Notes under the pieces: generated by a model | Told to the model about the DNA's origin: nothing | The model's database searches: none | Seen by the model: only the letters and a program-made list of their open reading frames with translations | Assembly: GCA_001768325.1 (NCBI GenBank) | Contig: MENQ01000023.1 | Span: 124,001 to 188,000 of the forward strand | Direction: 5' to 3' | Length of the DNA: 64,000 bases | Source: Bacteroidetes bacterium GWC2_46_850 | GTDB taxonomy: Bacteria; Bacteroidota; Bacteroidia; Bacteroidales; Dysgonomonadaceae | Shown: piece by piece, positions 3,721 to 26,477 of the stretch | How the letters are laid out: each line of letters begins with the position of its first letter | Numbering within the stretch: position 1 is the first letter of the stretch | Position numbers and translations under genes: made by a program

Positions 3721-3755
3721 CAAAATTATGGTTGCTCATGGCCATTGAAAAGGAC
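3721..3755 (-). promoter_or_regulatory. Phage lytic promoter P1 (GTCC element, 27 nt, TAATTTTG)
   Basis: On the minus strand GTCCTTTTC begins at 3755 and the -7 box TAATTTTG occupies 3728-3721. The distance from the G of GTCC to the first T of the box is exactly 27 nt, as at six other intergenic sites in this prophage. It would drive the 3215-3700 gene and the tape measure gene. The intervening TGAGCAACCATA is shared with the promoter at 9674-9708. Confidence 0.7.
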
Positions 3756-3787
3756 AAAAAAAACGGCTTCAGGAGTTGAAGCCGTTT
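3756..3787 (-). terminator. Intrinsic terminator after the lysis block
   Basis: Perfect 10-bp stem AAACGGCTTC/GAAGCCGTTT (3761-3770 with 3778-3787), followed on the minus strand by eight T. It ends the transcript of the 3805-4173 gene. Its T-tract runs directly into the GTCC element of promoter P1. Confidence 0.85.
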
Positions 3788-3804
3788 CAGATCTGTTGAA
3801 GATC

Positions 3805-4173
3805 CTATATTGAATTTCGTATTGTATTCGGGAGTAATCTTGAAGGCAACCTATCATTATCAGGCTTAGGATCATTTAGTGGAATATAACATTGTCCATA
3901 ATGGTCAATTGTCGCCATGGTATGTATCTCTGCCGGCATTCTTAATACTGTATATTCTGCAAATGATATCGATATCGGTACCGCTCGAATCAGTACATCC
4001 GTCTCCAGATATACAATCACAAAATTGTGAGCCGTAGCCGATATATCTGATTTTTGGAATACATCCTCCATATATGAGGATTTTTCATCACTGCCGGGAC
4101 CTGTGTCAACGGCATAAGCTCCAACGGAGAACGTGAAGAGCAGAACTACAAAAAAGATAAATTTCTTCATCAC
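3805..4173 (-). CDS. Small secreted protein of unknown function
   Basis: 122 residues with a clear N-terminal signal peptide: MMKK, a hydrophobic core FIFFVVLLFTFSVGA and a probable cleavage after AYA. The mature part is short, has no cysteine cluster that I recognise, and carries no catalytic motif. A second in-frame ATG at codon 2 (4170) is an equally good start. It has its own GTCC-type promoter (4210-4244) and its own terminator (3756-3787), so it is a one-gene unit between the spanin-like gene and the tail genes. It could be a superinfection or lysis accessory protein acting in the periplasm, but that is only inference from export and position. Confidence 0.6.
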   Translation of the reverse strand: MMKKFIFFVVLLFTFSVGAYAVDTGPGSDEKSSYMEDVFQKSDISATAHNFVIVYLETDVLIRAVPISISFAEYTVLRMPAEIHTMATIDHYGQCYIPLNDPKPDNDRLPSRLLPNTIRNSI

Positions 4174-4209
4174 TTAAATAATTTAATGGGTTTATAAATA
4201 AAAACGATT

Positions 4210-4244
4210 CAAAATTACAAAGCTAAAATAGCCTGAAAAAGGAC
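4210..4244 (-). promoter_or_regulatory. Phage lytic promoter P2 (GTCC element, 27 nt, TAATTTTG)
   Basis: GTCCTTTTTC starts at 4244 on the minus strand and TAATTTTG lies at 4217-4210, again 27 nt from G to T. The element overlaps the last codons of the spanin-like gene (which ends at 4223), unlike the other members of the family, which are intergenic. It serves the secreted protein gene at 3805-4173. Confidence 0.6.
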
Positions 4245-4798
4245 AAAATATTTTGCAATTTCTTCCGAAAAAAAATAATCAGAGTTATAAACGCTCCCAA
4301 TACCATACCCCAAATGAATATTTTAAAATTAAACCCGGTCATGGGTATTATTTTTTTCTTCAGTTCTCTGTTCTCGTAGGCCAGCTTCTCAACTCGCAGC
4401 GCTAGGTTTGTTTTGACTGTTGTAAGGCTATCCATTTCCTTTACATGCTCTTGCTTCAACGACTCCATCTCCTTTATCGTCCGGTCTAGTTGGCTCTTCG
4501 TGGTGGTGATGATCTCCTGTAAGATCGGGTATTTGCCTGTCTCTGGTATCACCTGGGCCGTTGTATCGTAGATGATAGTGTGTGACGAAGATTCACTCTC
4601 TAACCGGCTTACCTCATCTCTTGATCGCTCTAAATCGCTTTTGAGCGTCTCTACTTCGATTATCTTTTTCTGTAATTCACTTTTAAGTGAAGTGATGGCT
4701 GTACTGTCAACTTTCGTAACGGTACGCTCAGTGAGGATCTGTTTCGGCTTACACCCGATCAGAAGAAGGAGAAATAGTATGGGTAGATATTTTTTCAT
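4223..4798 (-). CDS. Candidate unimolecular spanin (lipoprotein with coiled coil and C-terminal membrane helix)
   Basis: 191 residues. The N-terminus is a lipoprotein signal with lipobox LLIGC and lipidation cysteine 16. Residues about 35-72 and 95-150 are rich in heptad-like E, K, L and S and should form coiled coils. Residues about 158-177 (FKIFIWGMVLGAFITLIIFF) are a strong transmembrane segment with a basic tail. An outer-membrane lipid anchor at one end and an inner-membrane helix at the other is the defining layout of u-spanins such as T1 gp11, which fuse the two membranes in the last step of lysis. The neighbours are a muramidase and a membrane protein. The family is usually somewhat shorter, and I cannot test homology here. 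Start ATG overlaps the upstream stop as TAATG. Confidence 0.6.
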   Translation of the reverse strand: MKKYLPILFLLLLIGCKPKQILTERTVTKVDSTAITSLKSELQKKIIEVETLKSDLERSRDEVSRLESESSSHTIIYDTTAQVIPETGKYPILQEIITTTKSQLDRTIKEMESLKQEHVKEMDSLTTVKTNLALRVEKLAYENRELKKKIIPMTGFNFKIFIWGMVLGAFITLIIFFRKKLQNILSFFRLF

Positions 4799-5073
4799 TA
4801 GTCAGTCCAATTTGGGTGTAATGTTTCAAAATCGGGTATTTCAACTGTCTGTCCTTTTAATTTATGCGTGCAATCAGACAAAAATTGAATTTTCCCTTCG
4901 CGGATAAATGAATGACAAACATGATCAGGCCATCTAACCAATAAGGAAGGCGATATCGTTGGCATATCTACATTTTCATTGAATGACCATCTGGAGTCTA
5001 TAACGTGAATAGCGTTACATCCGGGACAATGGAAAACAAGATCATTGGATTTTGTCTTATGAAATTTTGCCAT
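4798..5073 (-). CDS. DUF6527-like small phage protein
   Basis: 91 residues from the ATG at 5073; a longer in-frame reading from 5193 would overlap the muramidase gene heavily and is rejected. It contains a CPGC pair near residue 15, a WSFN motif and a C-terminal segment with FIREGKIQFLSDCTHKL, which I recognise as typical of DUF6527 proteins often found in phage lysis or structural blocks. The two cysteine-rich points and the histidines suggest metal binding. Molecular function is unknown. It sits 4 bp after the muramidase stop and overlaps the spanin-like start by one base. Confidence 0.65.
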   Translation of the reverse strand: MAKFHKTKSNDLVFHCPGCNAIHVIDSRWSFNENVDMPTISPSLLVRWPDHVCHSFIREGKIQFLSDCTHKLKGQTVEIPDFETLHPNWTD

Positions 5074-5077
5074 GATG

Positions 5078-5653
5078 CTAAATCCCCTGCTTTTTATACT
5101 TTTCGTATGATTTTTGCATGGAGATGTCGTAAGGTTCCCGGCCCCACTTCTTCGCCATTTCCTTATATCTGGCACCGTTGTAGCGCATGGCAACCGTATG
5201 CCAGTCCTCGAGACTCAATGCATTGAAAAGAATATGATCCGTCCGGATAAATTCAGCCATCTGAAATATTTGTCTGTCTTCACCACATTTTGCATCATCC
5301 CACATGGATCCAACGGAATCATATCCCAACCTTTTCCAATGCAAACCGAGTACCTGACCAATGCCTATACTGGTGGCCATCATTGCGCTGTCTGGAGAAA
5401 TAGAAAAAGCATTGTTAAACGCAACCCATTCTGCGGCCTGTCTCTCAACACCGTTCAGGCTCCATCTTCCGGATGGAGCATATGGCTCAAACTTTCGAAA
5501 CCAAACCGGCTCAAACTGGATAATGATTTTCCCAGTCGTTTCATCAAAGCCTTTTCCTCCACTTTCAACCTCGATGAATGCGGCTAAAGCTTCTGTTTCT
5601 ACGCCAATCCGGCATGCTTCAAATTTGATGGACAATCGTTGTTCTTTTGTCAT
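5078..5653 (-). CDS. Phage endolysin, N-acetylmuramidase
   Basis: 191 residues matching the phage N-acetylmuramidase family (DUF3380-type): an N-terminal AAFIEVESGGKGF with the candidate catalytic glutamate at 28 or 30, then IIIQFEPVWF, then ATSIGIGQVLGLHW and a C-terminal MRYNGARYKE region. The enzyme would hydrolyse the MurNAc-GlcNAc bond of peptidoglycan at the end of infection. No signal peptide is visible, so export needs a holin, and the membrane protein encoded at 6017-6616 is the best candidate. The gene overlaps its upstream neighbour by 4 bp (ATGA). Confidence 0.88.
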   Translation of the reverse strand: MTKEQRLSIKFEACRIGVETEALAAFIEVESGGKGFDETTGKIIIQFEPVWFRKFEPYAPSGRWSLNGVERQAAEWVAFNNAFSISPDSAMMATSIGIGQVLGLHWKRLGYDSVGSMWDDAKCGEDRQIFQMAEFIRTDHILFNALSLEDWHTVAMRYNGARYKEMAKKWGREPYDISMQKSYEKYKKQGI

Positions 5654-6015
5654 GGCTTGTTTACGATTTTTGCGGCGATCACATTGCCATTTTCTTCATC
5701 TACGATCTGAATCACCTCTATCATATTCTCAATTGCTGGATCCACTTCGTTACCGGTCACATCGATAATATTCCCGGGTGAGTCAGCTTGTCGTGGTGAC
5801 TTTTTTTTCAATTCATTCTTCCTTGACAGATACAAATCTTCAGCTGTGAATGCACTCACGTGCCATGTAAGAATGCTTCTCACCGGAGAGCTTACAGCTG
5901 TGGAGGAACGGCTGGTAGATGCGGCCTCCATACCTGATGCCGGTAATCTGCTTGTTTTTAGCATCCCACACCCAAGCAACATTGAAATACCCACTAAAAA
6001 TAATATCCGCTTCAT
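5650..6015 (-). CDS. Small lipoprotein in the lysis block, function unknown
   Basis: 121 residues with a lipoprotein signal (MKRILFLVGISMLLGC, cysteine 16). The mature part has a low-complexity Ser/Thr/Ala linker at about residues 25-47 and a more acidic C-terminal half (VTGNEVDPAIENMIEVIQIV). No enzyme motif is seen. It overlaps the muramidase start by 4 bp. In this position it could be an outer-membrane spanin partner or an anti-superinfection lipoprotein; the sequence does not decide. Confidence 0.6.
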   Translation of the reverse strand: MKRILFLVGISMLLGCGMLKTSRLPASGMEAASTSRSSTAVSSPVRSILTWHVSAFTAEDLYLSRKNELKKKSPRQADSPGNIIDVTGNEVDPAIENMIEVIQIVDEENGNVIAAKIVNKP

Positions 6016-6016
6016 A

Positions 6017-6616
6017 TTACTTTTCTTTTATTAAGTTTTTTACTTTTTCTACAATGCTGTCAACCAGCATCTTCCTTATGTAATTACCATAATTCTCTAT
6101 AAGATCATTGTCGTTGATCCCCATCAATGTGCTACCACCTACAAGCCTTGTGATCACTTTTGTAATCGTGAATACAGAAGCAAGTATAGCCGCCCATGGA
6201 ACATCAAATATGTCGTTCAATACCATCAGCGTGTCAAAGATCGCCGAGAGAACCCATATTATCGCATAAAAGAAAATCCTGTCCGGTACCCGATAATATT
6301 GTAGATCCAGCTTTTTTATATTCTCCCTGTCTTCCTCGGTCAAACTGTCCTCTACGACTGGTTCTTTCTCTTTCAGCCTCTTATATGCTCGGTTCCAGCG
6401 CACGTTAACTAACGTGATCAGGATAGTGAATATCAATGCAAGAGGTATATACGTAAGCGTAAGAGTGATGTGCTCCTTGGCCGATTTTTCATCTATCATC
6501 TCTCCGAATGCCTGACTGTATAATGCTTTCAGATCCTTCTTGTTGATCTGATAGTATATTGTATCTGTCGTTATTACCCTCTCAGCCTGAACCACATATG
6601 TACTATCCTGTTCCAT
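6017..6616 (-). CDS. Phage membrane protein, holin candidate
   Basis: 199 residues. Hydrophobic segments lie at about residues 52-70 (LTLTYIPLALIFTILITLV), 112-135 (IFFYAIIWVLSAIFDTLMVL) and 140-160 (VPWAAILASVFTITKVITRL). A charged loop (KRLKEKEPVVEDSLTEEDRE) lies between the first two, and a charged amphipathic tail closes the protein. Three membrane segments next to a signal-less muramidase is the usual holin context, but the length is above the usual 70-150 residues. It is followed after one base by the lipoprotein gene. Confidence 0.5.
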   Translation of the reverse strand: MEQDSTYVVQAERVITTDTIYYQINKKDLKALYSQAFGEMIDEKSAKEHITLTLTYIPLALIFTILITLVNVRWNRAYKRLKEKEPVVEDSLTEEDRENIKKLDLQYYRVPDRIFFYAIIWVLSAIFDTLMVLNDIFDVPWAAILASVFTITKVITRLVGGSTLMGINDNDLIENYGNYIRKMLVDSIVEKVKNLIKEK

Positions 6617-6798
6617 TACGCTATATCATATTTAATCCCGTCATCACTCAAAATATGTTCTATCTCTTCAATGTAAACTACATCGTATATATTCCATTTT
6701 ATACCTGTCCACCTACCAACCATTTCCTGCAGATTCTCGTTGTTATTATATAGCTTATTAAACCTGTCAAGATATCCAAACCTTATGTATAAAGTCAT
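6616..6798 (-). CDS. Small phage protein of unknown function
   Basis: 60 residues, acidic, with aromatic residues throughout (RFGYLDRFNKLYNN; IEEIEHILSDDGIKYDIA). There is no membrane segment or known motif. It overlaps the upstream gene by 4 bp and the downstream gene by one base, which supports it as a translated member of the operon rather than a chance frame. Confidence 0.55.
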   Translation of the reverse strand: MTLYIRFGYLDRFNKLYNNNENLQEMVGRWTGIKWNIYDVVYIEEIEHILSDDGIKYDIA

Positions 6799-7136: not shown

Positions 7137-7153
7137 ATCGTCGCCTAATTGAA

Positions 7154-9655: not shown

Positions 9656-9673
9656 AGTTCTTCGTTTTTATTG

Positions 9674-9708
9674 CAAAAATATGGTTGCTCACAGGGACGG
9701 AAAAGGAC
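9674..9708 (-). promoter_or_regulatory. Phage lytic promoter P3 (GTCC element, 27 nt, TATTTTTG)
   Basis: GTCCTTTTCC starts at 9708 on the minus strand; TATTTTTG is at 9681-9674, 27 nt from G to T. It lies in the 58-bp gap before the tail fibre gene. The segment TGAGCAACCATA before and at the box is identical to the one at 3726-3737. No strong terminator precedes it. Confidence 0.7.
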
Positions 9709-9713
9709 AATAA

Positions 9714-10211: not shown

Positions 10212-10213
10212 GG

Positions 10214-10996
10214 TTATTTTGTTTGATGCGTTTTTATACGTGCATTGATGCGCTTGAACATCAGTATGCAGTTAGTTTTCTTGTAATGATCGTAGTTCAG
10301 GATGTCATCGCCTACGAAGGCATCAAGGATCCCCGTCCAGTCGGGTAGAGAGGTCGATGTTTTCTTAGTGATTCCTCTCTTCGTACTTTCCCTGTCGTCG
10401 GTCGATTTTGATTCGAATAGTAGAGGAAAAGGTTTCTCGAGCCATTTATGGATAAAAATGTAATTCATGAATATGGCGTTGCGTGTAGCTTCATCAACAT
10501 GCTTCCTGATGTACTTTATCCGCTTTTCAAAGTCGATATCGGTAACCGATTCATTGCTTTTCAGGTATAGAGCCGCGATAAACCGGCATAGATCTTCTTC
10601 TTTATGATCCCGTACGTACATGAAGAAATAAGTGTCAAACAGGGCAAAACGCTCGAAATCCACATCTCTGAATTTTGCTTTGGGGGCCATTAACCCGGTA
10701 CCCGGGATTACCTGCATGTAGAAGAAATTAACCGATCCATTCGGCCTGGCTGCAAAAGTGCACAGCTCGGTAAGTTTATAAAGTTCGAATTTTGAAAATT
10801 TACGGGTTATCCTTTTCGGAATTGAAAAGAAACGGCTTGCAAATTCAAAGTCAGCAATATTATTCAGGTAGATATCGCTGCAAACAGAAAACTGATCCCC
10901 GTTCAGTTCATGCCATTTTTCCGGAACATCCAGTTCTTTTGTCTTCCGGAATATAAAAAACTGTTTGTATTGAATTTTCAGTCTTCTCATGCCCAA
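10214..10996 (-). CDS. Phage protein of unknown function in the virion block
   Basis: 260 residues; MGMRR offers starts at 10996 and 10990, the first overlapping the upstream gene by 10 bp. It is rich in aromatic residues (FFIFRK, FFYMQV, DTYFFMYVRDH), with a basic Ser/Thr-rich linker near residue 205 (RESTKRGITKKTSTS) followed by LPDWTGILDAFVG. The late LPDW-type helix after a linker recalls tail assembly chaperone or connector proteins of Bacteroidales phages, but I cannot name the family. Confidence 0.5.
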   Translation of the reverse strand: MGMRRLKIQYKQFFIFRKTKELDVPEKWHELNGDQFSVCSDIYLNNIADFEFASRFFSIPKRITRKFSKFELYKLTELCTFAARPNGSVNFFYMQVIPGTGLMAPKAKFRDVDFERFALFDTYFFMYVRDHKEEDLCRFIAALYLKSNESVTDIDFEKRIKYIRKHVDEATRNAIFMNYIFIHKWLEKPFPLLFESKSTDDRESTKRGITKKTSTSLPDWTGILDAFVGDDILNYDHYKKTNCILMFKRINARIKTHQTK

Positions 10997-11958
10997 AAGC
11001 TTTTTTTATCGGTATTATCCCGTTTTGGAATCAGAGTACCGGCGCTGGAAGTATACTCGAAATCAGCTGTCAAAAGTTTCTCGGCAATTTTCCAGTAAGA
11101 AATGCCATCGGCTTCAAGCATATTCGCCTGCATCATGATGCGTTCGTCGCTCACCGGTTGATGCACGGTTTCATTGTCGCCAGTGGATCCTGAGAGAGAA
11201 TCAAAGAATAGGCCCTTCTCCGTGATGCTGCCGGTTTCTTTTACCAGGCGTGCCAGCGAGTAAAACACGACTACGGGGATAAGCGCTTCACGCAATTTCG
11301 TGTATTTGTCTTCCGGGGTGTCCGTTGCTAAATTTGCGATGAAGGCATCATACACTGCAGTACCTATCCGTGCTTTGATCATGCCAATGGAAATGTTCTG
11401 CATGTGCTGTTTCAATCGCAGGTAGATGAGCCGGCTCCCGTTGATGAAATAGTACCGGTCAATCTCGGCAGCATTGCGAACAATCGCCTTTTTGTTTTCC
11501 GTGTAGTACGACGATTCAGCGAAATGTGGAAATTCCGGCTTATGCTCCTCCAGGTATTTCAGCAGATCATCCAGGGCATTGAATCCCTTTTCCTTCCAGC
11601 TTCTTTTTAATGCCTGTTCCTGGTATTTATACGGAGTCTTGGCATCTTCGCTTTCCTGCCGTAAGGTTCCACTGCCGCCGATCAGCATCTGCATTTCGTC
11701 GTAGTTGTCCCAGAAAGCCAGCCGGGCATTGGCCATCTGTGCCAGGAACAGCAACCGTGATTGTACGGGTGTGGGTGATGTGGCCGTGTATATAGCAATG
11801 AGATCTTCAGTCATCAAGTCCCCCAGCAGCGGTCGGAGGAACTTTTCGAAAGCACTCCGAAGCGGCGCTTCCACGGTCTGAAATTCAAGAGAACGTGATA
11901 CGCTGATGAAAGGCATCATTTCATCGGCATTGCTCCATTTTTCCTTTGAGAATATCAT
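10987..11958 (-). CDS. DUF6712-like phage structural protein
   Basis: 323 residues, mainly helical: QSRLLFLAQMANARLAFWDNYDEMQM, then ALKRSWKEKGFNALDDLLKYLEEHK, then YFINGSRLIYLRL. This order matches my memory of the DUF6712 family of Bacteroidota phages, found in head-tail or tail blocks. The name is a recollection and not a search result. It is the first gene after promoter P4 (11979-12013), so it leads a three-gene operon with the genes ending at 10214 and 9714. Confidence 0.55.
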   Translation of the reverse strand: MIFSKEKWSNADEMMPFISVSRSLEFQTVEAPLRSAFEKFLRPLLGDLMTEDLIAIYTATSPTPVQSRLLFLAQMANARLAFWDNYDEMQMLIGGSGTLRQESEDAKTPYKYQEQALKRSWKEKGFNALDDLLKYLEEHKPEFPHFAESSYYTENKKAIVRNAAEIDRYYFINGSRLIYLRLKQHMQNISIGMIKARIGTAVYDAFIANLATDTPEDKYTKLREALIPVVVFYSLARLVKETGSITEKGLFFDSLSGSTGDNETVHQPVSDERIMMQANMLEADGISYWKIAEKLLTADFEYTSSAGTLIPKRDNTDKKSFWA

Positions 11959-11978: not shown

Positions 11979-12013
11979 CAAAAATATACCGACCATAATG
12001 GTGGGAAAAGGAC
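11979..12013 (-). promoter_or_regulatory. Phage lytic promoter P4 (GTCC element, 27 nt, TATTTTTG)
   Basis: GTCCTTTTCC starts at 12013 on the minus strand and TATTTTTG is at 11986-11979, 27 nt away. GGTCGGT immediately before the box is shared with the promoter at 17588-17622. It drives the DUF6712-like operon. Confidence 0.72.
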
Positions 12014-12046
12014 AAAAAAAAGCCCCTGTTGACAAACAACAAGGGC
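12014..12046 (-). terminator. Intrinsic terminator fused to promoter P4
   Basis: On the minus strand GCCCTTGTTG pairs with CAACAGGGGC (one G-T pair) around the loop TTTGT, followed by eight T. The T-tract abuts GTCC of promoter P4. It ends the 12895-12067 transcript. Confidence 0.82.
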
Positions 12047-14815: not shown

Positions 14816-16177
14816 TTAAGAAAGTGTTTTTTTCGTTCCGGCTCCTGTATCCAAAGTCGTGAGTACTGTATTGCGGAAGCGCAACTCAACATCTGTGTAA
14901 CCATTGATGCGTAACATCATTTCCAGTGGATCCAGCAGGTTCTGCCGGTCTATCCAGGCATTGGCAATATTCACCAGGAAAGCCTCACGGATATTACTGC
15001 CTCCCTGGTTGCCGGCATAGGTGCCACCGGGCATACCGGCGCCCAGTACATTCGGATTGACAAGCAATGCAAAGAGGATCTCGCTGTTGGCCGCCGCACT
15101 GGTCACCAGCTTATCTCCTTCCTTGCTCTTGTTATCCAGCGGGGTGATCTTCCACTCTTCTTCCACTTTCCCGTTCAGATCATTGATTGAGTAATGGGTG
15201 AACAGCGGCTTTTCTGCATTTTCCGTTCCCAGGAGGTTACTTTCGATCTCATCCATGTACAGATCAATCGCGGCCGTACGATCTTTCGCATTTTCAAACT
15301 CCGCTTCAGGAAATTTCTTCTCCCAGAAAGAGTATGGGATCTGCACATGCCATTTCCACGTGGCCTGATTCTTATACACCTTTTTCAGGTACGACGGCAC
15401 TTCTTTGGCAATGTCAATCCATCCGGCCAGATATGCAGACAGCCATACCGGCTCGCTGTACGTGTCGCGGTTGCTCCAGCTGTCTCTCACAATCATCATG
15501 AAGCTTTCCTTTGTTTTGCCTTCAAACTTCATGATATCGTAATCCAGCTCAGGATCATATTCCATCAGCACAGGATAGGCATTGTAATCGCCTTTTGCCG
15601 GCGATTCAGGAAACTTCCCGCTCACGATGCATGTTTCCTTTCCCATTTTATCACGTTCACTCAGGCGCCAGAAGAAAGCATTTACAGGATTTAGACCCAC
15701 AATCTTATCACCGGTTTCATTCGGAATGAACTGGATGGCCGATGAACCAAACTTAAAGTAGTCACGGGCGGCTTTTTCCAGGTATCTCCTGGCTTTCCGG
15801 CTGAGAAGGAAATGTTGCAGCTCCGTGTCGCCATACGGAGCCAGCATCTCATTCCCGTCGGCATCATATCCCTCTATTTTGCATGCATAGATACCCTGGC
15901 CACAGGTAAAATTCCTGATAAACTTCAATCCGCTGTTCAACACACTGGTACTGGTTATAATGTCATTTGCCCACTGTGGAAAATCATTATTTTTTCCCCA
16001 CATCAGCATCTTGATGTTTGAAACAGAAAAGAAATCCTGATCAGGGCTTGTGTTCACCGTCTGATCTGCTTTTTTCTTCTGTTCTTTCAGAATACCGGGG
16101 GCTCCGGTGGTCTGCATGAATGCCGATGAGCAGGAGATGATGAGTGGCGTGCCGTTTTTGCTGTATAAAATATCCAT
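14816..16177 (-). CDS. Phage portal protein
   Basis: 453 residues. The order of features fits the portal family of Bacteroidales phages: WGKNNDFPQWANDIITSTSVLNSG near residue 60, a GSSAIQFIP segment near residue 145, DSWSNRDTY, a basic YKNQATWKWHVQIPYSFWEK region, then SEILFALLVNPNVLGAG and GSNIREAFLVNIANAWIDRQNLLDPLE, the last two typical of the clip and stem helices. Portals form the dodecameric ring through which DNA is packaged. It lies far downstream of the capsid and terminase genes, separated by RadC-like and HicAB cargo. Confidence 0.82.
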   Translation of the reverse strand: MDILYSKNGTPLIISCSSAFMQTTGAPGILKEQKKKADQTVNTSPDQDFFSVSNIKMLMWGKNNDFPQWANDIITSTSVLNSGLKFIRNFTCGQGIYACKIEGYDADGNEMLAPYGDTELQHFLLSRKARRYLEKAARDYFKFGSSAIQFIPNETGDKIVGLNPVNAFFWRLSERDKMGKETCIVSGKFPESPAKGDYNAYPVLMEYDPELDYDIMKFEGKTKESFMMIVRDSWSNRDTYSEPVWLSAYLAGWIDIAKEVPSYLKKVYKNQATWKWHVQIPYSFWEKKFPEAEFENAKDRTAAIDLYMDEIESNLLGTENAEKPLFTHYSINDLNGKVEEEWKITPLDNKSKEGDKLVTSAAANSEILFALLVNPNVLGAGMPGGTYAGNQGGSNIREAFLVNIANAWIDRQNLLDPLEMMLRINGYTDVELRFRNTVLTTLDTGAGTKKTLS

Positions 16178-17587: not shown

Positions 17588-17622
17588 CAAAAATAAACCG
17601 ACCTGTATGGAAGGAAAAGGAC
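17588..17622 (-). promoter_or_regulatory. Phage lytic promoter P5 (GTCC element, 27 nt, TATTTTTG)
   Basis: GTCCTTTTCC starts at 17622 on the minus strand; TATTTTTG is at 17595-17588, 27 nt from G to T. GGTCGGT before the box matches promoter P4. It drives the portal operon. Confidence 0.72.
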
Positions 17623-17656
17623 AAAAAAAACGCCGTGAGCTAGAGGGCCCACGGCG
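17623..17656 (-). terminator. Intrinsic terminator after hicB, fused to promoter P5
   Basis: CGCCGTG/CACGGCG stem with a 12-base loop, followed by eight T on the minus strand that abut GTCC of promoter P5. Confidence 0.82.
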
Positions 17657-17671: not shown

Positions 17672-18097
17672 CTAAACGAATTCTACTTGTGAGATTTCGG
17701 CTGCAAAATTATGCAATTCTTTTTCAATTTTGATGACTGTTTTTTTGCTTGGTTTTCTTCTTCCTGTTACGTAGTGACTCAATTGTCCCTGATTTACACC
17801 GGTCAACTTTTCGAGACCGGCTAATGAAATAATTTTTGAATAATATGAGAGGAACGATGCAAGATCATATTTGAAAGAAAATTCCACATTTTTTGGAAAT
17901 TCTTTTTTTACCTTAGCATAATATTCTTTCATCTCTTCAAAACTTTTTTCAAAATCTTCAATTGCTTCTTTTACACTGTTTCCATCGCCTAATATACCAA
18001 AAGGAAGAGAGTTTTCACTGCTTATAAAAGCAGTGTAGGTGTTGTCATTACCTTTTTCAACTGTTACTTCAATTTTGTAAATTTCATTTGCTTTCAT
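17672..18097 (-). CDS. hicB: HicB-family antitoxin
   Basis: 141 residues from the ATG at 18097; an in-frame ATG at 18127 adds ten charged residues and cannot be excluded. The N-terminal half is the degenerate RNase-H-like HicB fold (YKIEVTVEKGNDNTYTAFIS, then GDGNSVKEAIEDFEKSF). The C-terminal half is a Cro-like helix-turn-helix (GLEKLTGVNQGQLSHYVTGRRKPSKKTV) that would bind the operon promoter. It neutralises the toxin encoded just upstream and acts with it as autorepressor. The cassette sits between radC-like and virion genes and has its own promoter. Confidence 0.85.
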   Translation of the reverse strand: MKANEIYKIEVTVEKGNDNTYTAFISSENSLPFGILGDGNSVKEAIEDFEKSFEEMKEYYAKVKKEFPKNVEFSFKYDLASFLSYYSKIISLAGLEKLTGVNQGQLSHYVTGRRKPSKKTVIKIEKELHNFAAEISQVEFV

Positions 18098-18190
18098 AAT
18101 TTTTTCGTCCTTGCTTTTTCTGTTCATGTTGCCATTCCAATTATATAAATAGTGTGTATCGAGTGTGATAAGGAGGGTGTGATGTGGGGG

Positions 18191-18379
18191 TTATAATTTA
18201 ACCCCCGACTCACGCTCGATACTTCGGAGAGTACCTGATTTTACTTCTTGTGATTTGTGATGACCGAGTTGAAATTCCTTTCCGGTAATCGGACTAAACC
18301 ACATGGGATGATTTCCATTACTATCACAGCAATAACATCCCCTTTTTTTGAGCTTTCGCTCGACTTCTGAGTACTTCAT
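18191..18379 (-). CDS. hicA: HicA-family mRNA interferase toxin
   Basis: 62 residues, the usual size for HicA. The double-stranded-RNA-binding-like fold is indicated by KYSEVERKLKKRGC at the start, the candidate catalytic histidine in NGNHPMWF (H24), and the C-terminal GHHKSQEVKSGTLRSIERES, a close match to the HicA family ending. It would cleave mRNA when not held by HicB. Toxin-before-antitoxin order is normal for hicAB. The gap to hicB is 93 bp and has no other gene. A promoter and palindrome lie upstream at 18431-18485. Confidence 0.85.
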   Translation of the reverse strand: MKYSEVERKLKKRGCYCCDSNGNHPMWFSPITGKEFQLGHHKSQEVKSGTLRSIERESGVKL

Positions 18380-18430
18380 TTAAAATATTTTTAAAGTTCA
18401 TAATGTCAAAGAGCCCTTTTTAGAACACCA

Positions 18431-18462
18431 CAAAGATACGAAATATAATATCAATTACCAAA
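18431..18462 (-). promoter_or_regulatory. hicAB promoter (TTTG-N20-TATCTTTG)
   Basis: TTTG at 18462-18459 and TATCTTTG at 18438-18431 on the minus strand with a 20-base spacer, a full match to the Bacteroidota consensus. Independent expression from the prophage is therefore likely. Confidence 0.75.
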
Positions 18463-18467
18463 TAAAA

Positions 18468-18485
18468 GATATTAAATTTAATATC
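18468..18485. promoter_or_regulatory. Palindromic operator candidate for HicAB autoregulation
   Basis: Perfect 18-bp palindrome GATATTAAATTTAATATC, six bases upstream of the -33 element of the hicAB promoter. HicB proteins with a helix-turn-helix normally bind such sites. Confidence 0.6.
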
Positions 18486-18571
18486 ATCTATAAAATAAAA
18501 TGTATTTAATAATCTGATTCATCTCTCTTTCTCTGACAGAGAAAGGTTTTAAGGCGTTTCTTTGCTACTTT

Positions 18572-18636
18572 CTTCGTCGCCATAACAAGAAAGTAGCGCC
18601 GAAGAGTACGAGTCATTTTATAATCTCCGTACTCTT
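18572..18636 (-). repeat. Two adjacent hairpins between radC-like gene and hicAB
   Basis: GCTACTTTCTT/AAGAAAGTAGC (11 bp, about 18572-18606) and AAGAGTACG/CGTACTCTT (about 18610-18636) lie back to back after the radC-like stop. Neither is followed by a long T-tract, so they may be RNA 3'-end stabilisers or weak terminators. Confidence 0.5.
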
Positions 18637-18644
18637 CTGGCAGT

Positions 18645-19136
18645 CTAAATCACCCCATCATCCGCAAGGCTGTAATATTCCTGATCTGTGATGATCATGC
18701 TATCCAATAGGGCGATATCTATCCACTGCAGAGCCTCTTTTAATTTCTTGGATATTTGTTTATCCTGCGGACTTGGTAAAGTGTTTCCCGATGGGTGATT
18801 GTGTGCCATGATCACACCACATGAAAGGCTGTCAATTGCATATTTGCAAATGATTTTCACGTCTACCACCGTACCGGAAACACCACCCTGTGAGATTTTT
18901 GCAAATCCAATCGTATGATTTGACCGGTTTAATAGCAGAATGAAAACACTTTCAAAAATGTGGATATCGTCATTATAAAATTGCCGGATATATTCATGAG
19001 CATCCCGGCTACTTGTAATTTTCATTTTTTTAAATTCGCTCACTTTTGCCGATAAACTGTATTCAACGGCTTTTTTAGTACTCTTCAGTTCTTTTGGAAG
19101 TTGGTCACCTGCATTGCTCTTTGAAATAGATTTCAT
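18645..19136 (-). CDS. radC: RadC-family JAB/MPN protein
   Basis: 163 residues, corresponding to the C-terminal JAB domain of RadC without the N-terminal helix-hairpin-helix part. The metal motif is visible: VMAHNHPSGNTLPSPQD gives H-x-H, then S and D. The family ending (ALLDSMIITDQEYYSLADDG) follows. Truncated RadC proteins of this kind are common on prophages and integrative elements; their biochemical role is unsettled. It has its own promoter (19221-19251) and a hairpin in the leader. Confidence 0.82.
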   Translation of the reverse strand: MKSISKSNAGDQLPKELKSTKKAVEYSLSAKVSEFKKMKITSSRDAHEYIRQFYNDDIHIFESVFILLLNRSNHTIGFAKISQGGVSGTVVDVKIICKYAIDSLSCGVIMAHNHPSGNTLPSPQDKQISKKLKEALQWIDIALLDSMIITDQEYYSLADDGVI

Positions 19137-19178: not shown

Positions 19179-19213
19179 AAAGGCGGTGCGGTCTCCAAAC
19201 TTGTACCGCCTTT
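19179..19213 (-). repeat. Hairpin in the radC-like leader
   Basis: AAAGGCGGT/ACCGCCTTT, a 9-bp stem with a 17-base loop, just downstream of the predicted start site of the radC-like transcript. It could protect the 5' end or control translation. No T-tract follows. Confidence 0.5.
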
Positions 19214-19220
19214 ACTTTAT

Positions 19221-19251
19221 CAAATATACAAAATATTAACCATCTGTGCAA
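19221..19251 (-). promoter_or_regulatory. Promoter of the radC-like gene (TTG-N20-TATATTTG)
   Basis: TTG at 19251-19249 and TATATTTG at 19228-19221 on the minus strand, 20 bases apart. Confidence 0.65.
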
Positions 19252-19625: not shown

Positions 19626-21350
19626 TCAGATGCGAGGAGCAATGAAAGACCGGTTTTGGCGTAGCGCATAGCCATACTTTGTCCACACACGTTTGTCCAC
19701 GGCATCACCGAAGTGGGTAGCCTCTTCCGGCAAAACAGATTCGCGTGCTTCGCTTTTCTTGTCTTTCTCAAATAGTCCGTTGGGCTTTTGGAAAACAGAT
19801 GTGTTATTCATTGAGATTAGCGTATACTTGCACCGGGTACCGTTGAATCGTTTCTTAGGTAAAAATGGATTTGTTTCAGCCAGTATTGATTGCCAAAGCA
19901 AATATTTTTCATTGTGTGGTGGTTCCTTTCCCGGATGTTTTCTCTGTGTTACTTTCCATTTATTCCGCTCGAGTCTGGCAATGGCAAGCTGATTGTATGT
20001 CTTACGTGAACTGGCCAGGCGTATATCACCATAGGTGTCCACTGTATAGATTACTTCTTTCTTCTTATGATGGCGATAGTAATGGCAGAACATATCTATC
20101 AGGGTATTGATCATTGTGTCGGTATGTTCCTGGGGTTTCACATAGAATTCGTTGATATTGTTATCAGTCTTCTGGATCAGGCCGGACACAAAATCATACA
20201 TGCGTTCCTGGGCAACCTCGATCAATGCAATCTTGCTGCCCCAGTCTGGCGTTATCTCAATGGGTTGGTTTGGATCACAATCGGCATCAAACAGAGAATG
20301 CCGGTTCTCGAGTTTGGTCCAGTCAAACTCCGTGTCATCGGCCAGGCCACGGATGTAATTATCATTGTCGGCCTTATAATATATATGCCGGTCATCTAAA
20401 TTGTAATAACAGTCTGTAACCTTATCAATATAGTAGTTCAGTATCTCAATCATGAATGTCATCAGATCCATGGTCTGGTACATTTTTACAATGTACGAAA
20501 ATCCGATGTTGATGATGTTGTCAAATGCATTGGAAAGCATGAAGAGTATTCCATCCTTAGATACAAAAGGAGTGATCTGTTTCTTTAAACGGTTCACTTC
20601 TTTCCATATTTCCACGGCAATAGCTGTTTCACCATCCAGCTTTGCACGGATCAGATCCAATTGAAGCTTAACAATCTGATTCCAAATTTTGAATAATTGG
20701 ATCCCGGCTTCATCTTCATAATACTTGGCAGGCTCTGTGAGCCATTTATGTTCCGGTAAGTATCCCATGGATGAAGTAAAAGTGCTACCGTGATGTTTAA
20801 ACACTGGCTTAACAGACAAGTCTCCAAAATGCTCAAGGTTTCCCCTATTTGTGGCTGCCGACTCCTGGTCGAACTTCAACTTGTCAATTGTCAGCGCTTC
20901 ATCGGTAATGTTATAATCCACATTCGGACCACGACCACTTGTTTTTTGTGAGATGAGATAAAGAGCGTGCCCGTTGCTGAATGTGATCATATTGTCGTAA
21001 CTCATGATCTTCTCATAAGGCAATAAGAAATGATCAGGCGGTTTTTGACAGACAACGTAATCTCCTGTCTTTGTTTTCTGGTCGTACTTCTTGTAGCCAA
21101 GCTGTTCAAGCAGTTTAAAGGTCGATGGCAACGTTTTGGTGAGTGCCTGGCCAATGGTGTCCTGCGTGATTGAAGTGATTCCACGTGGCAGCAAACGGAC
21201 GTTCTCGTCCACTTCAGCTCCCACGATGTATGATTTACCGGTAGCACGACCGGCAATAAGGTATTTTAATTTGGCGGAAAGTAACTGATATTTGACCTGA
21301 AAAGAGTTCAGGGATAAAGTTTCCTCCCAAACATCTTCTTTATACATCAT
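19626..21350 (-). CDS. terL: Phage terminase large subunit
   Basis: 574 residues. The ATPase P-loop is YLIAGRATGKS (residues 34-40 for GRATGKS), the Walker B region is NVDYNITDEAL near residue 150, and the C-terminal half has acidic clusters typical of the RNase-H-like nuclease (ITPDWGSKIALIEV, YTVDTYGDIRLA). The enzyme cuts concatemeric DNA and pumps it into the prohead. The start overlaps the small-subunit candidate by 4 bp, so the two are coupled. Confidence 0.88.
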   Translation of the reverse strand: MMYKEDVWEETLSLNSFQVKYQLLSAKLKYLIAGRATGKSYIVGAEVDENVRLLPRGITSITQDTIGQALTKTLPSTFKLLEQLGYKKYDQKTKTGDYVVCQKPPDHFLLPYEKIMSYDNMITFSNGHALYLISQKTSGRGPNVDYNITDEALTIDKLKFDQESAATNRGNLEHFGDLSVKPVFKHHGSTFTSSMGYLPEHKWLTEPAKYYEDEAGIQLFKIWNQIVKLQLDLIRAKLDGETAIAVEIWKEVNRLKKQITPFVSKDGILFMLSNAFDNIINIGFSYIVKMYQTMDLMTFMIEILNYYIDKVTDCYYNLDDRHIYYKADNDNYIRGLADDTEFDWTKLENRHSLFDADCDPNQPIEITPDWGSKIALIEVAQERMYDFVSGLIQKTDNNINEFYVKPQEHTDTMINTLIDMFCHYYRHHKKKEVIYTVDTYGDIRLASSRKTYNQLAIARLERNKWKVTQRKHPGKEPPHNEKYLLWQSILAETNPFLPKKRFNGTRCKYTLISMNNTSVFQKPNGLFEKDKKSEARESVLPEEATHFGDAVDKRVWTKYGYALRQNRSFIAPRI

Positions 21351-22761: not shown

Positions 22762-23597
22762 GATTGTTCCGCTATTGCGTATTCAATCTGTTCTTTTTCA
22801 ACCTTCATCCTCTCGATTTTTTTTTCAAGAGTAATCCGTTTCGGTCCTTTCGGCATTGGATTTTCTTTGGCCAGTTTCTTTTCAGACTGATAAAGCAATT
22901 TGTTTTCGGCTTTTGCAATCTTAATGCGCCAGTTTTCTTTTTGTTTCTTCAGTCCCTCTATATCATCAGCCAGTGTGATACCTGTATCCTGTTTTTTTGT
23001 TTCAACAGGTGAAGACGGATTATCCGGATCGAAAGGTTTATTGAACAGATCATCAGATGGTACAATTCCTGAATCTTTGTAAGCAGAATAGCTTTTCCAG
23101 AGTTCTTCCATTCGGTGACTTACTCCAAGTATCGATGCAGCAATCGTCTTTCTTCTGGCGACTGCGTCTTCTGAATTCGTTTCGCCAATTTCTTTTAGTT
23201 CTTTGTGCAGGATACTTCGCTGTTTGTACAGATCGCTGTATTCGGTTAATACCCTTTTCACAACGTCAGGGTATTCTTTATTGGCAAAATCCTGGTCAAT
23301 TTCTGCTGTCACCTTTTCAATATTTACATTCACTTCAGAAGGGATCTCGTTTTCGATATCGTCATGATCGGGATCATTCGGATTAATCGGATAACGAAGA
23401 TAATCACGCAGTACCCTGTCAATTTTCTGAGGAATATCTCTCCGAAATTTATTCTTCAGAAAATTTTCGTACACATTCGGCTTGTAACCTGTTTGATGGA
23501 GAAGATCTATTCCATCATCCACTGTTTTTCTCCGCGAATCTCTGTTAATATAGGCTGCTACCTTTTCCCGCAGTTGAACACTGATGTTTACTTCCAT
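22758..23597 (-). CDS. Phage protein with coiled coils, first gene of the terminase operon
   Basis: 279 residues. Residues about 5-60 hold a helical region with NRDSRRKTVDDGIDLLHQTGYKPNVYENF. A linker with DPDHDDIENEIPSEV follows, then coiled-coil segments (KQRSILHKELKEIGE; LKKQKENWRIKIAKAENKLL; KIERMKVEKEQIEYAIAE). No domain is recognised. It is the first gene downstream of a GTCC-type promoter (23631-23665) and leads the operon that ends with terL. Confidence 0.6.
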   Translation of the reverse strand: MEVNISVQLREKVAAYINRDSRRKTVDDGIDLLHQTGYKPNVYENFLKNKFRRDIPQKIDRVLRDYLRYPINPNDPDHDDIENEIPSEVNVNIEKVTAEIDQDFANKEYPDVVKRVLTEYSDLYKQRSILHKELKEIGETNSEDAVARRKTIAASILGVSHRMEELWKSYSAYKDSGIVPSDDLFNKPFDPDNPSSPVETKKQDTGITLADDIEGLKKQKENWRIKIAKAENKLLYQSEKKLAKENPMPKGPKRITLEKKIERMKVEKEQIEYAIAEQS

Positions 23598-23630
23598 TTG
23601 ATTATAATTTAGTGAGTATTTATTTGCGGT

Positions 23631-23665
23631 TAAAATTAGTGCTGAAAAACGTGCGCCGAAAGGAC
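23631..23665 (-). promoter_or_regulatory. Phage lytic promoter P6 (GTCC element, 27 nt, TAATTTTA)
   Basis: GTCCTTTCG starts at 23665 on the minus strand and TAATTTTA is at 23638-23631, 27 nt from G to T. It differs from the other six in the last base of the box and in the T-tract of the element. It drives the terminase operon. Confidence 0.65.
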
Positions 23666-23699
23666 AAAAAAAGTACCTCCTCTGATGGAAGGTACTTTT
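23666..23699 (-). terminator. Intrinsic terminator of the capsid operon, fused to promoter P6
   Basis: AAAAGTACC/GGTACTTTT stem with a 13-base loop and a T-tract on the minus strand that runs into GTCC of promoter P6. Confidence 0.82.
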
Positions 23700-23723
23700 G
23701 AAGTGTATGAGAAAAAGAGGAAG

Positions 23724-24320
23724 TTAAGGAACCAGCACAAGAAGTTCTTCAACCAGTCCTGTATATACCAAGGCTTTTCCGGTACGGAACCTGAACTGCA
23801 TGGATGCCTGGTTTCTGTCGCTTGCCGTGGTGCCGGTAACAGCTCCATCGCCTCCCGTGACAAATGTGGCTCCACGGCGCTTGTTACCCATCAGGTAATA
23901 TTCACCGTTTTCATCCGGGACGATAAAAAACATTTTCCTTTGACTGGCAGCATTCATAAATCCGAGGATAGTTTGTGAAATACGGGCTTTCACAATGTTC
24001 AGGTTATATTCGAAGTGAGTGCCATCCACTTCTCCAACCGGCACGATACTGAAATTACCGGCATCCTCGGTAAACTTGAACTTGAAGGCCCTTGTGCCGG
24101 GCTTCATTGTCAAATTCCCCACCAGCGCTCCTGCAGCTTCCAGTTCTACAGGAGTAACCACCTGGGTGGTCCCGTCGATAGTAGGCACCGGTTCTGTTGG
24201 CCATACGGCAACGTCTTCGTGGTAACCGAAGATGATCTCGGGAACAATACCGGCCATATTGCCACCCTCACAACTGAGTTGGTGGTCAATATCAGCTAAA
24301 CTTATACAATTTTCAGCCAT
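23724..24320 (-). CDS. Phage virion protein, minor capsid or tail-tube candidate
   Basis: 198 residues, beta-rich, with an even spread of short hydrophobic strands (GTRAFKFKFTEDAGNFSIVPV, RKMFFIVPDENGEYYLMGNK, GDGAVTGTTASDRNQASMQF). The pattern of a small beta-barrel with a G/T-rich loop fits a tail-tube or capsid-decoration protein. It lies 27 bp after the major capsid gene and is the last gene before the terminator, so it should be made in large amounts with the capsid protein. Confidence 0.6.
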   Translation of the reverse strand: MAENCISLADIDHQLSCEGGNMAGIVPEIIFGYHEDVAVWPTEPVPTIDGTTQVVTPVELEAAGALVGNLTMKPGTRAFKFKFTEDAGNFSIVPVGEVDGTHFEYNLNIVKARISQTILGFMNAASQRKMFFIVPDENGEYYLMGNKRRGATFVTGGDGAVTGTTASDRNQASMQFRFRTGKALVYTGLVEELLVLVP

Positions 24321-24347
24321 AATACGTTTGTTTTAGAGATTCAAAAA

Positions 24348-25295
24348 TTAAGGAATAACCACTTCGGCCACGTTCGTCCAGACCACTTCGTTGATACCGA
24401 AGCCAAGACCTTCCCACCAGTCGGTAAGCATGTTCACCACTCGTTTCGATTCCTCGATCTTCACCTTTGCTGCATTTTCACCTTTTTTGGTGATATGCAG
24501 GAAGTTGTCAACCGGTGTTGCCCAGATGTCATCGGTACCGATCATGGAAGGAAGACCAACTACTCTGGCGGGGGAGAAATCGAGCGTGTCGTCGATCTGG
24601 GAAGGACTGGTGATATCGTAATATCCAAGTGAACGTTTGTCCTTCATGAAGGCACGTTTCCACTTCGGAGCCATTCCGATGATCATTTTCGAGTTCTGAT
24701 ACTGTTCAGAGATACTTTCGTAGAAAGTTTCAATCTGATCATAGATTGTTGCGGCATCCAAAGCTGCCATGGTCACGTGGTTCACCTTGTCACTTGTGAG
24801 GAAGGTTTTCAATCCGTTCATCGACTGGCCGGAGATACCTGCAGTTCCCGCTGTGGGGGCAGTGAACACACCTTTGTAATATTCAAGTTCTTCCATGTCA
24901 GTATTGATCTGACCGTAGAAGTGAGATTCCAGAATGTAACGGATGAGAGGCCATTCTTTGCGACTCAGATCATTGCTGGCAAGAAAACCAAGCCAGTTGT
25001 TTTCCACATCGTCCGGATAAACTTCAAAATCCACCTTCAGATGGAAAAGTTCAATCGGATTGGGCGTGAAGGTCAAATCTCCCTTGGGAGTCCATGATTT
25101 CTGAAATGACTGCACAAGGCGTGTCATTACAGATTGAGCCAGGCGATAAACGGTATCATCCGTCTTTATCTTGGTTGCCAGCTTGGTTGTTTCGCGTCCA
25201 AAGAGCAGAAGTCGTTTCAGGCGCGCCATGTTTTGTCCGGAATTGATGTAATATGCACCATATTCGGTTACGATGTCGGTAGTAGTAATTGCCAT
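24348..25295 (-). CDS. Phage major capsid protein candidate
   Basis: 315 residues, the size expected for an HK97-fold capsid subunit. Visible features are a helical N-terminus, a long spine-like stretch with TFTPNPIELFHLKVDFEVYPDD, an A-domain-like YQNSKMIIGMAPKWKRAFM, and a C-terminal FLHITKKGENAAKVKIEESKR. It follows the ClpP-like protease gene after 23 bp, the normal protease-then-capsid order. The assignment rests on size, order and style rather than on a motif. Confidence 0.78.
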   Translation of the reverse strand: MAITTTDIVTEYGAYYINSGQNMARLKRLLLFGRETTKLATKIKTDDTVYRLAQSVMTRLVQSFQKSWTPKGDLTFTPNPIELFHLKVDFEVYPDDVENNWLGFLASNDLSRKEWPLIRYILESHFYGQINTDMEELEYYKGVFTAPTAGTAGISGQSMNGLKTFLTSDKVNHVTMAALDAATIYDQIETFYESISEQYQNSKMIIGMAPKWKRAFMKDKRSLGYYDITSPSQIDDTLDFSPARVVGLPSMIGTDDIWATPVDNFLHITKKGENAAKVKIEESKRVVNMLTDWWEGLGFGINEVVWTNVAEVVIP

Positions 25296-25318
25296 ATTAT
25301 TGCGAATTAATGGGTTGA

Positions 25319-26425
25319 TTAAATGATTTCGGCGTCAGCAATCTTGTTATGAGGAAGATTGTCAATAGTGTTCCAGTCCGTTTCGTCCTTTACTTCTGCC
25401 GGATTCGATGAACCTCCTTGCGGATTTTCTGCAGCAGCTGCCGGGCGAGCGGCTAATTTTGCTTTCACAGCTGCTACTTTTGCAGCTGCATCAGCGGATG
25501 CTTTCACAGTAGGATCCAGGTCATCGAGCAGGTCGAGAACCAATTGCAGTGCATTTGTCGCTTCCGATACCTTTGCGGCATTTTCGGTGATCGTTTTGAT
25601 CTCTGCATCGAGCGACTTCATTTGATCGATTGAAACAATTACGTTTCCCTCTTTTTCTTCAAAGCCTTCCACTTTCAGCAGGGTGTTGATTTGTTGAAAA
25701 TCTTTCTTCATTTCGGTTTTATTTTTGGGTGAAAAAATATCCATCAGCATTTGAAAAAGGCTTTTTTTGTCTTTTTCATCCATTTTGTTCACCATCTCAG
25801 TAGTGATTTCAATAGGCTCTGTTTCTTTCATTACGGGTACCGGAAGATCCAGCGCTTTCATCTTTGCCGCAGTCTCATTAGAGACAGCTACCTTTTCTTT
25901 AGTTTTAACCGGTACCAGTTCATCTACTAAACCAAGCTCAACAGCTTCCTTGGCCGATAACCAGCGGGATTCCTTCATGAGGTTCATCACGGTTTTAAAG
26001 TCAATACCTCTACTCTTCACATAGTCCTGAGCGACGGATAAGGTAAACACTTCAGCTTCCTTTTTCTGAGCAATCAGATCATTGATTGTCTGATCCAGGT
26101 CATCTTCATTCATGTTTCCCCAGGCATCAACCCAGATAGATGGTTTGTGAATAAGATAAAAAGAGTCCTCACGGATACGTGATTTTACGGCACCATGTCC
26201 AATGATCGTTGCAGCCGATGCGTTGAAGCCAACATACTCGAGCGTCACGTCACCATGTGTTTCGAACATTTCCTTAATTTTGAGGGCATGATTGAGATCT
26301 CCCCCCAGAGAAGTGCATTTCACGACAATTGGACCTTTTCCCAGATCATCCATCATTGTTTTGACGAATTGCATTGAGATACCCCAACGTCCCACTTCTC
26401 CAATCAACTCTAGCGTTTTAGCCAT
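25319..26425 (-). CDS. ClpP-like prohead protease fused to a scaffold-like C-terminal domain
   Basis: 368 residues from the ATG at 26425; a longer reading from 26617 would cross a promoter and a terminator. Residues about 1-190 are a ClpP/S49-type fold: GEVGRWGISMQFVKTM, the serine region YVGFNASAATIIGHG, the histidine region SFYLIHKPSIWVDAWG, and DLIAQKKEAEVFTLSVAQDY. Residues about 230-368 are charged and helical with an Ala-rich stretch (AAAKVAAVKAKLAARPAAAA), as expected of a scaffold that is digested during maturation. The gene directly precedes the major capsid gene. Confidence 0.82.
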   Translation of the reverse strand: MAKTLELIGEVGRWGISMQFVKTMMDDLGKGPIVVKCTSLGGDLNHALKIKEMFETHGDVTLEYVGFNASAATIIGHGAVKSRIREDSFYLIHKPSIWVDAWGNMNEDDLDQTINDLIAQKKEAEVFTLSVAQDYVKSRGIDFKTVMNLMKESRWLSAKEAVELGLVDELVPVKTKEKVAVSNETAAKMKALDLPVPVMKETEPIEITTEMVNKMDEKDKKSLFQMLMDIFSPKNKTEMKKDFQQINTLLKVEGFEEKEGNVIVSIDQMKSLDAEIKTITENAAKVSEATNALQLVLDLLDDLDPTVKASADAAAKVAAVKAKLAARPAAAAENPQGGSSNPAEVKDETDWNTIDNLPHNKIADAEII

Positions 26426-26442
26426 AATCTTATGATTTTGAG

Positions 26443-26477
26443 CAAAAGTATCCATATAAAAAAAACAGCAAAAGGAC
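26443..26477 (-). promoter_or_regulatory. Phage lytic promoter P7 (GTCC element, 27 nt, TACTTTTG)
   Basis: GTCCTTTTG starts at 26477 on the minus strand and TACTTTTG is at 26450-26443, 27 nt from G to T. The element lies in the loop and 3' arm of the overlapping terminator. It drives the protease-capsid operon. Confidence 0.68.

Follow-up and report, generated by a model that had tools for sequence, protein, structure and literature searches.

Putative phage-specific late promoters with a GTCC element at fixed distance from the −7 box in a Bacteroidota prophage

An element in fixed register ahead of seven gene units

The Bacteroidota housekeeping promoter combines a −33 TTTG with a −7 TAnnTTTG box. 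The question raised by this locus is how a set of prophage units preceded by the same −7 box, with a GTCC word further upstream, might be switched on together. The original prediction placed seven such sites in the window, by which we mean the whole 64-kb stretch of DNA analysed, and each was located as given: GTCCTTT-N20-TAnnTTT has seven exact matches, all on the minus strand, and at every one the G of GTCC precedes the T of TAnnTTT by 27 nt.

26443..26478, minus strand: putative late promoter 1, TGTCCTTTT ... TACTTTTG, before the protease-capsid unit
23631..23666, minus strand: putative late promoter 2, before the unit leading to the terminase genes
17588..17623, minus strand: putative late promoter 3, before a 359-aa gene and a portal-family gene
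11979..12014, minus strand: putative late promoter 4, before the DUF6712 gene
9674..9709, minus strand: putative late promoter 5, before the 833-aa GDSL-domain protein
4210..4245, minus strand: putative late promoter 6, before a 122-aa protein
3721..3756, minus strand: putative late promoter 7, before a 161-aa gene

The claim that such spacing lies beyond chance also held, and chance was rejected, since 100 dinucleotide shuffles of the window yielded a mean of 0.01 matches and a maximum of 1. With one mismatch allowed, CGCACGATT is clustered only and not enriched in the window (12 found versus 14 expected). Some spacers within the window are similar to one another.

The sites had further been said to lie directly before the first genes of their units. 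At all seven, the G is followed at 52–74 nt by the ATG of an ORF that runs for 80 codons or more (52 nt for 26477, 68 for 23665, 57 for 17622, 55 for 12013, 53 for 9708, 74 for 4244 and 55 for 3755). The DUF6712, portal, terminase and protease labels were matched by family members at 10987–11958 (DUF6712, Pfam 2.3e-17), 14816–16177 (portal), 19626–21350 (terminase large subunit) and within 25319–26617 (head maturation protease, for which the ATG at 26425 is the likely start). The 833-aa "tail fibre" protein contains a GDSL lipase domain according to Pfam, and a Pfam search with the 122-aa protein behind 4244 returned no match. Host-type promoters in the prophage were said to lack GTCC, which is true of hicA and radC: the regions 5′ of these genes, and of a 164-aa gene considered below, contain TATCTTTG or TATATTTG boxes, and GTCCT is absent.

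The element is scarce in the host chromosome. The 3,749,613-base genome holds eight exact matches, seven in the window and one outside, versus five for a reversed-pattern control, and among 395 genomes of the class every other genome has at most three. These counts led us to reject a host regulon, and they bear directly on the idea that a host protein reads GTCC and was borrowed by the phage. In favour of such borrowing, the −7 box is of the host type and every phage concerned appears to have Bacteroidota as hosts, but the word also varies between related phages at fixed register, and we regard a host reader as highly improbable.

Conservation in related phages

Twenty-eight loci collected solely via the 164-aa protein, and so chosen without use of the motif, contained 15 sites at 27 nt and no more than one at each of 30 other coding-strand distances. 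In 53 pooled contig sets, TTTG ending 35 nt from the G occurred 88 times versus at most 9 at any other register; these sets are partly motif-selected, with the T before GTCC and the TA of the −7 box unselected. That T lies immediately 5′ of GTCC in 102 of 113 pooled sites, and within TAnnTTTG the bases T28 and A29 occur in 81 and 97 of them, respectively. The −7 box is thus common to these sites and the housekeeping promoter, whereas the −33 TTTG is not conserved: pooled sites have GTCCTTTT instead, with G at position 9 in 17 of 113, and TGTCCTTTT occupies the place at its fixed 27 nt.

Orthologous promoters have diverged in their spacers and retained the element, the register and the boxes. 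The element of putative late promoter 1 is retained in the orthologues of G051, G835 and G081a. That of promoter 2 is retained in the same three phage sets and was not observed ahead of the relatives in G833 and G081c. Promoter 3 is retained in G830 and G835 but not in G051, and promoter 4 in G830 and G835 but not before the G051, G837 and G833 relatives. The element of promoter 7 is also present at relatives in G835 (L176:3733) and G051 (L016:12387). Relatives that keep the −7 boxes without GTCC or its spacing would speak against the original prediction, which survived this comparison through the 27-nt peak and the diverged-spacer orthologues.

Among isolated phages, Ingeline_1 has four sites at 27 nt, and the flavobacterial phages laban6-1 and 6H retain the register with other words, GTCACAA and GTCTTAAA, respectively. 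In these two relatives the register stood and the exact word did not, a result that refines the claim. Neither of these words, nor GTCCTTT in phage Versailles, exceeds shuffles in copy number; what sets these sites apart is their register and gene context alone.

GTCC of putative late promoter 1 sits within a terminator-like hairpin, which raises the question of whether the shared sequence might represent terminators or recently duplicated intergenic DNA and no promoter element at all. A hairpin with a T-run lies at or over the element in 45 of 113 sites, 35 of them strong, versus means of 25.3 and 11.7 with the first 45 nt shuffled, and the likeness of some window spacers points the same way. 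The majority of the 113 sites nevertheless have no such hairpin in this test, and orthologous spacers diverge while register and boxes stay, which makes this explanation scarcely credible. Overall, the loci gathered without the motif, the orthologous units and a host genome that shows no trace of such a regulon support the predicted phage-specific late regulon, and on sequence grounds we are highly confident that the sites belong to a phage-specific late promoter class, TGTCCTTTT-N19-TAnnTTTG.

Candidate readers of the element

We propose that a temperate tailed phage uses these sites as its late promoters, at which host RNA polymerase and its main sigma factor would read the ordinary −7 box TAnnTTTG. 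A phage-encoded activator would bind TGTCCTTTT (about −40 to −32), where the −33 TTTG would otherwise sit, and contact polymerase, and such contact would explain the fixed 27-nt spacing; replacement of the −33 contact by the element is compatible with the geometry. The activator would most likely be the 164-aa protein, whose gene lies shortly before the first late unit; it would be made early and then switch on the seven late units together. We place the probability of this whole model, late promoters, activator at TGTCCTTTT and 164-aa reader, at roughly 0.6, judged from sequence.

27037..27531, minus strand: 164-aa protein, proposed as late activator; precedes the first late unit
26514..26978, minus strand: 154-aa gene, between the 164-aa gene and putative late promoter 1
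36456..37157, minus strand: LuxR/GerE-type HTH protein, rival reader (Pfam GerE 9.7e-12)

The 164-aa gene is preceded by a host-type −7 box. The intervening 154-aa gene belongs to the same broad family as 23724–24320, and its product is probably structural. An AlphaFold model of the 164-aa protein (pLDDT 84.2) has helices at 82–109, 114–125 and 134–144 and an HTH-like C-terminus. Searches of Pfam, PHROGs, PDB sequences and PDB folds matched no known fold or DNA-binding family: the sole Pfam match was Pif1_2B at 0.065, below the cut-off, Pfam gave no match to sigma factors (sigma-70 region 2/4), the best PDB sequence score was 0.12, and no PDB fold matched below E 0.7. In PHROGs, the 6H and laban6-1 forms share one family annotated as of unknown function, and other forms are matched only weakly.

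Members of the 164-aa family were found below 1e-3 in 15 of 24 phage sets, two of these being model members, and in most sets with the family it lies ahead of an in-register element, as in G051, G835, G081a, 6H, laban6-1, Ingeline_1 and G832. The Microcystis phage encodes a family member 3.6 kb away from its nearest GTCCTTT element, and in G081b and G081c the family is present and the element was not found. Seven partial records (G830, G831, G833, G834, G837, G838 and MT836146) are without the family. The G836 match never fell below 0.01 (0.043, 0.11 and >1) and is assigned by synteny and a weak score only. The first enlarged family model did not recover the syntenic G832 and G836 genes and scored Ingeline_1 at 0.023, and hhalign gave no support for membership of G836, G832, Ingeline_1 or MT835875. 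A correspondence drawn by eye between an acidic recognition-helix residue and the C at position 4 was discarded, as the residue is absent from the G832 and MT835542 proteins despite their GTCC sites.

GerE/LuxR-type activators overlap the −35 region, and many of these phages encode such a protein. In this prophage it stands at the head of the early genes, and it might read the element, leaving the 164-aa protein with another role. Its GerE match is accompanied by a sub-threshold match to sigma region 4, and relatives fall below 1e-3 in 11 of 24 phage sets, including G832, G836, Ingeline_1, Leef_1, 6H, laban6-1 and the Microcystis phage (2.4e-28 in a six-frame search). However, six-frame searches of G051, G835 and G081a, all of which carry the element, gave no match up to E 1, the early region being covered in G051 and G835. 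Versailles encodes a close relative (44.8%) but has no in-register GTCC before any gene in the 49 of 58 kb examined; it is also without the 164-aa family. A LuxR/GerE-type reader in all these phages was rejected on the six-frame searches of the three element-carrying sets, and we consider it unlikely to be the reader here.

Another phage protein, such as a diverged sigma-like or sigma-binding factor, is a somewhat stronger competitor, though still a doubtful one. Small, fast-evolving early genes are hard to match, and the 164-aa family itself is barely detectable in G832 and G836. Against this, iterated searches from seven phages, run on a list of non-overlapping ORFs from which some genes are missing and with integrase, repressor-like, primase and LuxR types set aside, found no further non-structural family in most of the fuller phages.

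Relation to known systems and implications

The proposed activation by the 164-aa protein resembles in outline that of phage Mu, in which Mor and C are early-made activators of middle and late promoters that have a good −10-type box but lack a −35. The sites bound by Mor and C are dyads lying further upstream, in contrast to the single asymmetric word here, and Pfam found no Mor domain in the 164-aa protein. In the MotA middle promoters of T4, too, a single short box replaces the −35 element at a fixed distance; these serve middle genes rather than late ones, and PDB sequence and fold searches gave no relation between MotA and the 164-aa protein. Members of Duneviridae and Helgolandviridae (6H, laban6-1, Ingeline_1 and Leef_1) have portal, adaptor and terminase families and the element register in common with the prophage, but 6H and laban6-1 use other words and terminase identity is only about 23–28%, so we place the prophage in neither family.

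In the literature searched, which spanned few subscription journals and no bioRxiv preprints, no description of a class of late-gene promoters in Bacteroidota phages came up. The passages available for crAss001 contain no late promoter motif (PMC8375218). For Ingeline and Leef, the main text names LuxR and contains GTCC 0 times (PMC8776804).

The chances are evenly balanced, in our estimate, that late genes of temperate tailed phages throughout Bacteroidota are under the control of a new activator family, one for which no relative of known function was detected and which recognises a lone TGTC-type word where the −33 element would otherwise lie. The remaining letters of this word would drift between phages while the 27-nt geometry stays fixed, which would imply that activator and promoters co-evolve. 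The changed words of 6H and laban6-1 offer natural variants in which joint change of an activator and its sites at fixed geometry can be studied. The element allows late units to be mapped from sequence alone and singles out one small protein of 164 aa as its candidate reader, and it could yield promoters that are silent in the host until the phage protein is supplied.

A spaced element ahead of late units

The original prediction placed a GTCCTTT word, followed at exactly 27 nt by TAnnTTT, before seven late units on the minus strand of the prophage, and the sequence bore this out: at 3755/3728, 4244/4217, 9708/9681, 12013/11986, 17622/17595, 23665/23638 and 26477/26450, the T of TAnnTTT sits 27 nt past the G of GTCC, and at each site an ORF begins 52 to 74 nt beyond that G. 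The exact pattern occurs seven times in the window versus a shuffle mean of 0.01. Across the whole genome (3.75 Mb) there are eight matches, seven of them inside the prophage, and the pattern read backwards gives five. The minus strand of the prophage carries tail, adaptor, portal, terminase, capsid and protease genes after an integrase-family gene.

Features of the prophage and the host genome
L014:16569-17732, left of the window: integrase-family gene, one end of the prophage
Near 37 kb: primase, LuxR-type and repressor-like genes, the other end of the prophage
L001 (G000:C3:89981-90014): sole pattern match outside the prophage in this genome
13900-14451: 183-aa protein, aspartyl-protease-like domain fused to a SEC-C motif
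17672-19136: HicA-like toxin, HTH (HicB-like) and RadC genes between late units, with host-type boxes ahead
27037-27531, minus strand: 164-aa protein, candidate late activator
27653-27880, upstream of the 164-aa gene: [CT]GCACGATT six times within about 230 bases, perhaps an origin of replication or a site for a regulator
36456-37157, minus strand: LuxR/GerE-type HTH protein

Conservation in related phages

Independently of the motif, a search with aligned relatives of the 164-aa protein brought up 31 loci, including 29 new ones. In 28 new loci (L206, a duplicate of the relative G835, was excluded, and other near-duplicates were kept), TAnnTT[TG] followed GTCCT on the protein's strand at 27 nt in 15 cases and at any other value from 10 to 40 at most once each, so that the GTCC element with its 27-nt gap does recur in related phages, as expected of a phage-specific regulon. 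The opposite strand gave four pairs at 27 nt and up to three at other distances. By eye, allowing GTCCC and register 36, an element preceded a gene on the protein's strand in 28 of the 29 new loci; none was seen in L210, whose contig stops 475 bases past the gene.

A motif-led scan of viral contigs with a longer pattern returned at least 120 loci, and among those listed, three of which are pieces of the window's close kin, extra GTCCTTT/TAnnTTT pairs beyond the fetching sites numbered 13 at a gap of 20, and no other gap between 5 and 40 had more than three. Thirteen records (12 viral, one genome), 11 of them picked for motif or kinship with the window and some having sites in common, held 43 pattern matches versus three for the control, on a single strand within each record. 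The element also survives spacer divergence ahead of orthologous unit starts, including those of G051, a relative from the same family as the host.

Element ahead of orthologous units in the window and its relatives
Protease unit: kept in window, G051, G835, G081a
Unit starting 23597: kept in window, G051, G835, G081a, with the first box letter changed in G051 and G835; no element ahead of the G833 or G081c orthologues
359-aa gene: kept in window, G830, G835; G051 orthologue without element
DUF6712 gene: kept in window, G830, G835; without element in G051, G837 and G833, where the preceding gene comes close

In the window, G051 and G835, the 27-nt spacer of the terminase-unit promoter (window 23631-23666; L015:16878; L175:4907) contains a GCAC-type repeat, which could be an additional site, with terminase as one possible user. 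Elsewhere in relatives, reverse-transcriptase-like genes adjoin near-identical or similar variable-looking proteins (L015:4133-6368, L184:14613-16695), loci that we take to resemble diversity-generating retroelements.

Pooling 53 contig sets, some motif-chosen and some near-duplicates, yielded 352 GTCCT words preceding an ORF; TTTG ended at position 35 from the G in 88, and no other position between 20 and 49 had more than nine. Unique sites with TTTG, CTTG, ATTG or TTTA at this register numbered 113, from 42 of the 53 sets, several being plainly chance matches in coding DNA. Because the conserved letters include ones outside the selection (T before GTCC in 102 of 113, T6 in 93, T7 in 99, T28 in 81, A29 in 97), the element can be written TGTCCTTTT-N19-TAnnTTTG. 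Among the 11 sets with no register-35 site, G081a, 6H, laban6-1, MT835875, L226, L227 and L233 have GTC elements at register 34-36 or differing at the fourth or fifth base; later looks at G081b, G081c, Versailles and L210 found no element.

A hairpin with a T-run lies at or over the element in 45 of the 113 sites versus a mean of 25.3 when the first 45 nt were shuffled, and strong hairpins (-12 kcal/mol or better) in 35 versus 11.7; in several protease promoters GTCC itself is inside the hairpin. This excess suggests that many late promoters are linked with the end of the unit before them. Overall, the sequence comparisons support well a predicted late promoter class that is conserved and phage-specific, to which we assign a probability of about 0.95.

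Candidate readers of the element

Several phages carry changed words. In the flavobacterial phage laban6-1, GTCACAA occurs six times, always on the coding strand; five copies precede ORFs, four of these with TTG ending exactly at 35. Phage 6H has five copies of GTCTTAAA, four before ORFs, three of which have TTG ending at 34, 34 and 35. For both phages, copy number of the changed words alone was not above shuffles. GTCCTTTT occurs eight times in Ingeline_1, four before ORFs in register 35, and six times on the coding strand of Leef_1, mostly in register 34; by eye, GTCTTTCGC lies ahead of the G832 protease with TTTG ending at 35. That the word differs among related phages while the geometry is constant points to a phage-encoded reader.

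Such a reader might be the LuxR/GerE-type protein, found below 1e-3 in 11 of 24 surveyed phage sets; however, a six-frame search did not find it in G051, G835 or G081a, and Versailles encodes one yet shows no element in the 49 kb examined of its 58 kb. In its N-terminal part the window's protein contains a stretch with Cys, CPLRGEC, common to other phages, in one of which the protein with this stretch is annotated as an RNA polymerase sigma factor.

The 164-aa family, by comparison, was detected in 12 of the 24 sets by iterated profiles, in 13 by a 35-sequence model and in 15 once MT835875 and Ingeline_1 proteins were added, the enlarged model scoring G832 at 1.4e-5 (1.8e-4 in six frames) and G836 at 0.11 (above 1 in six frames). 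Profile alignment with hhalign supports laban6-1 membership (2.3e-5, across the HTH-like part) and did not support G836, G832, Ingeline_1 or MT835875 (E 0.025 to 0.31); two control neighbours gave 0.41 and 0.46. An AlphaFold model (pLDDT 84.2, pTM 0.75) has a helical C-terminal half. The viral library gave just one match below 0.001, a 157-aa Leef_1 protein (4.1e-6), whose length marks it as the Leef_1 relative.

Family members usually lie just ahead of an element: one gene intervenes in the window, G051, G835, G081a and Leef_1, and the element is within about 100 bases of the member's 3′ end in 6H, laban6-1 and Ingeline_1. In a Microcystis phage the closest GTCCTTT is 3.6 kb away. The 164-aa protein is our best guess, somewhat favoured, for the activator of the late promoter class.
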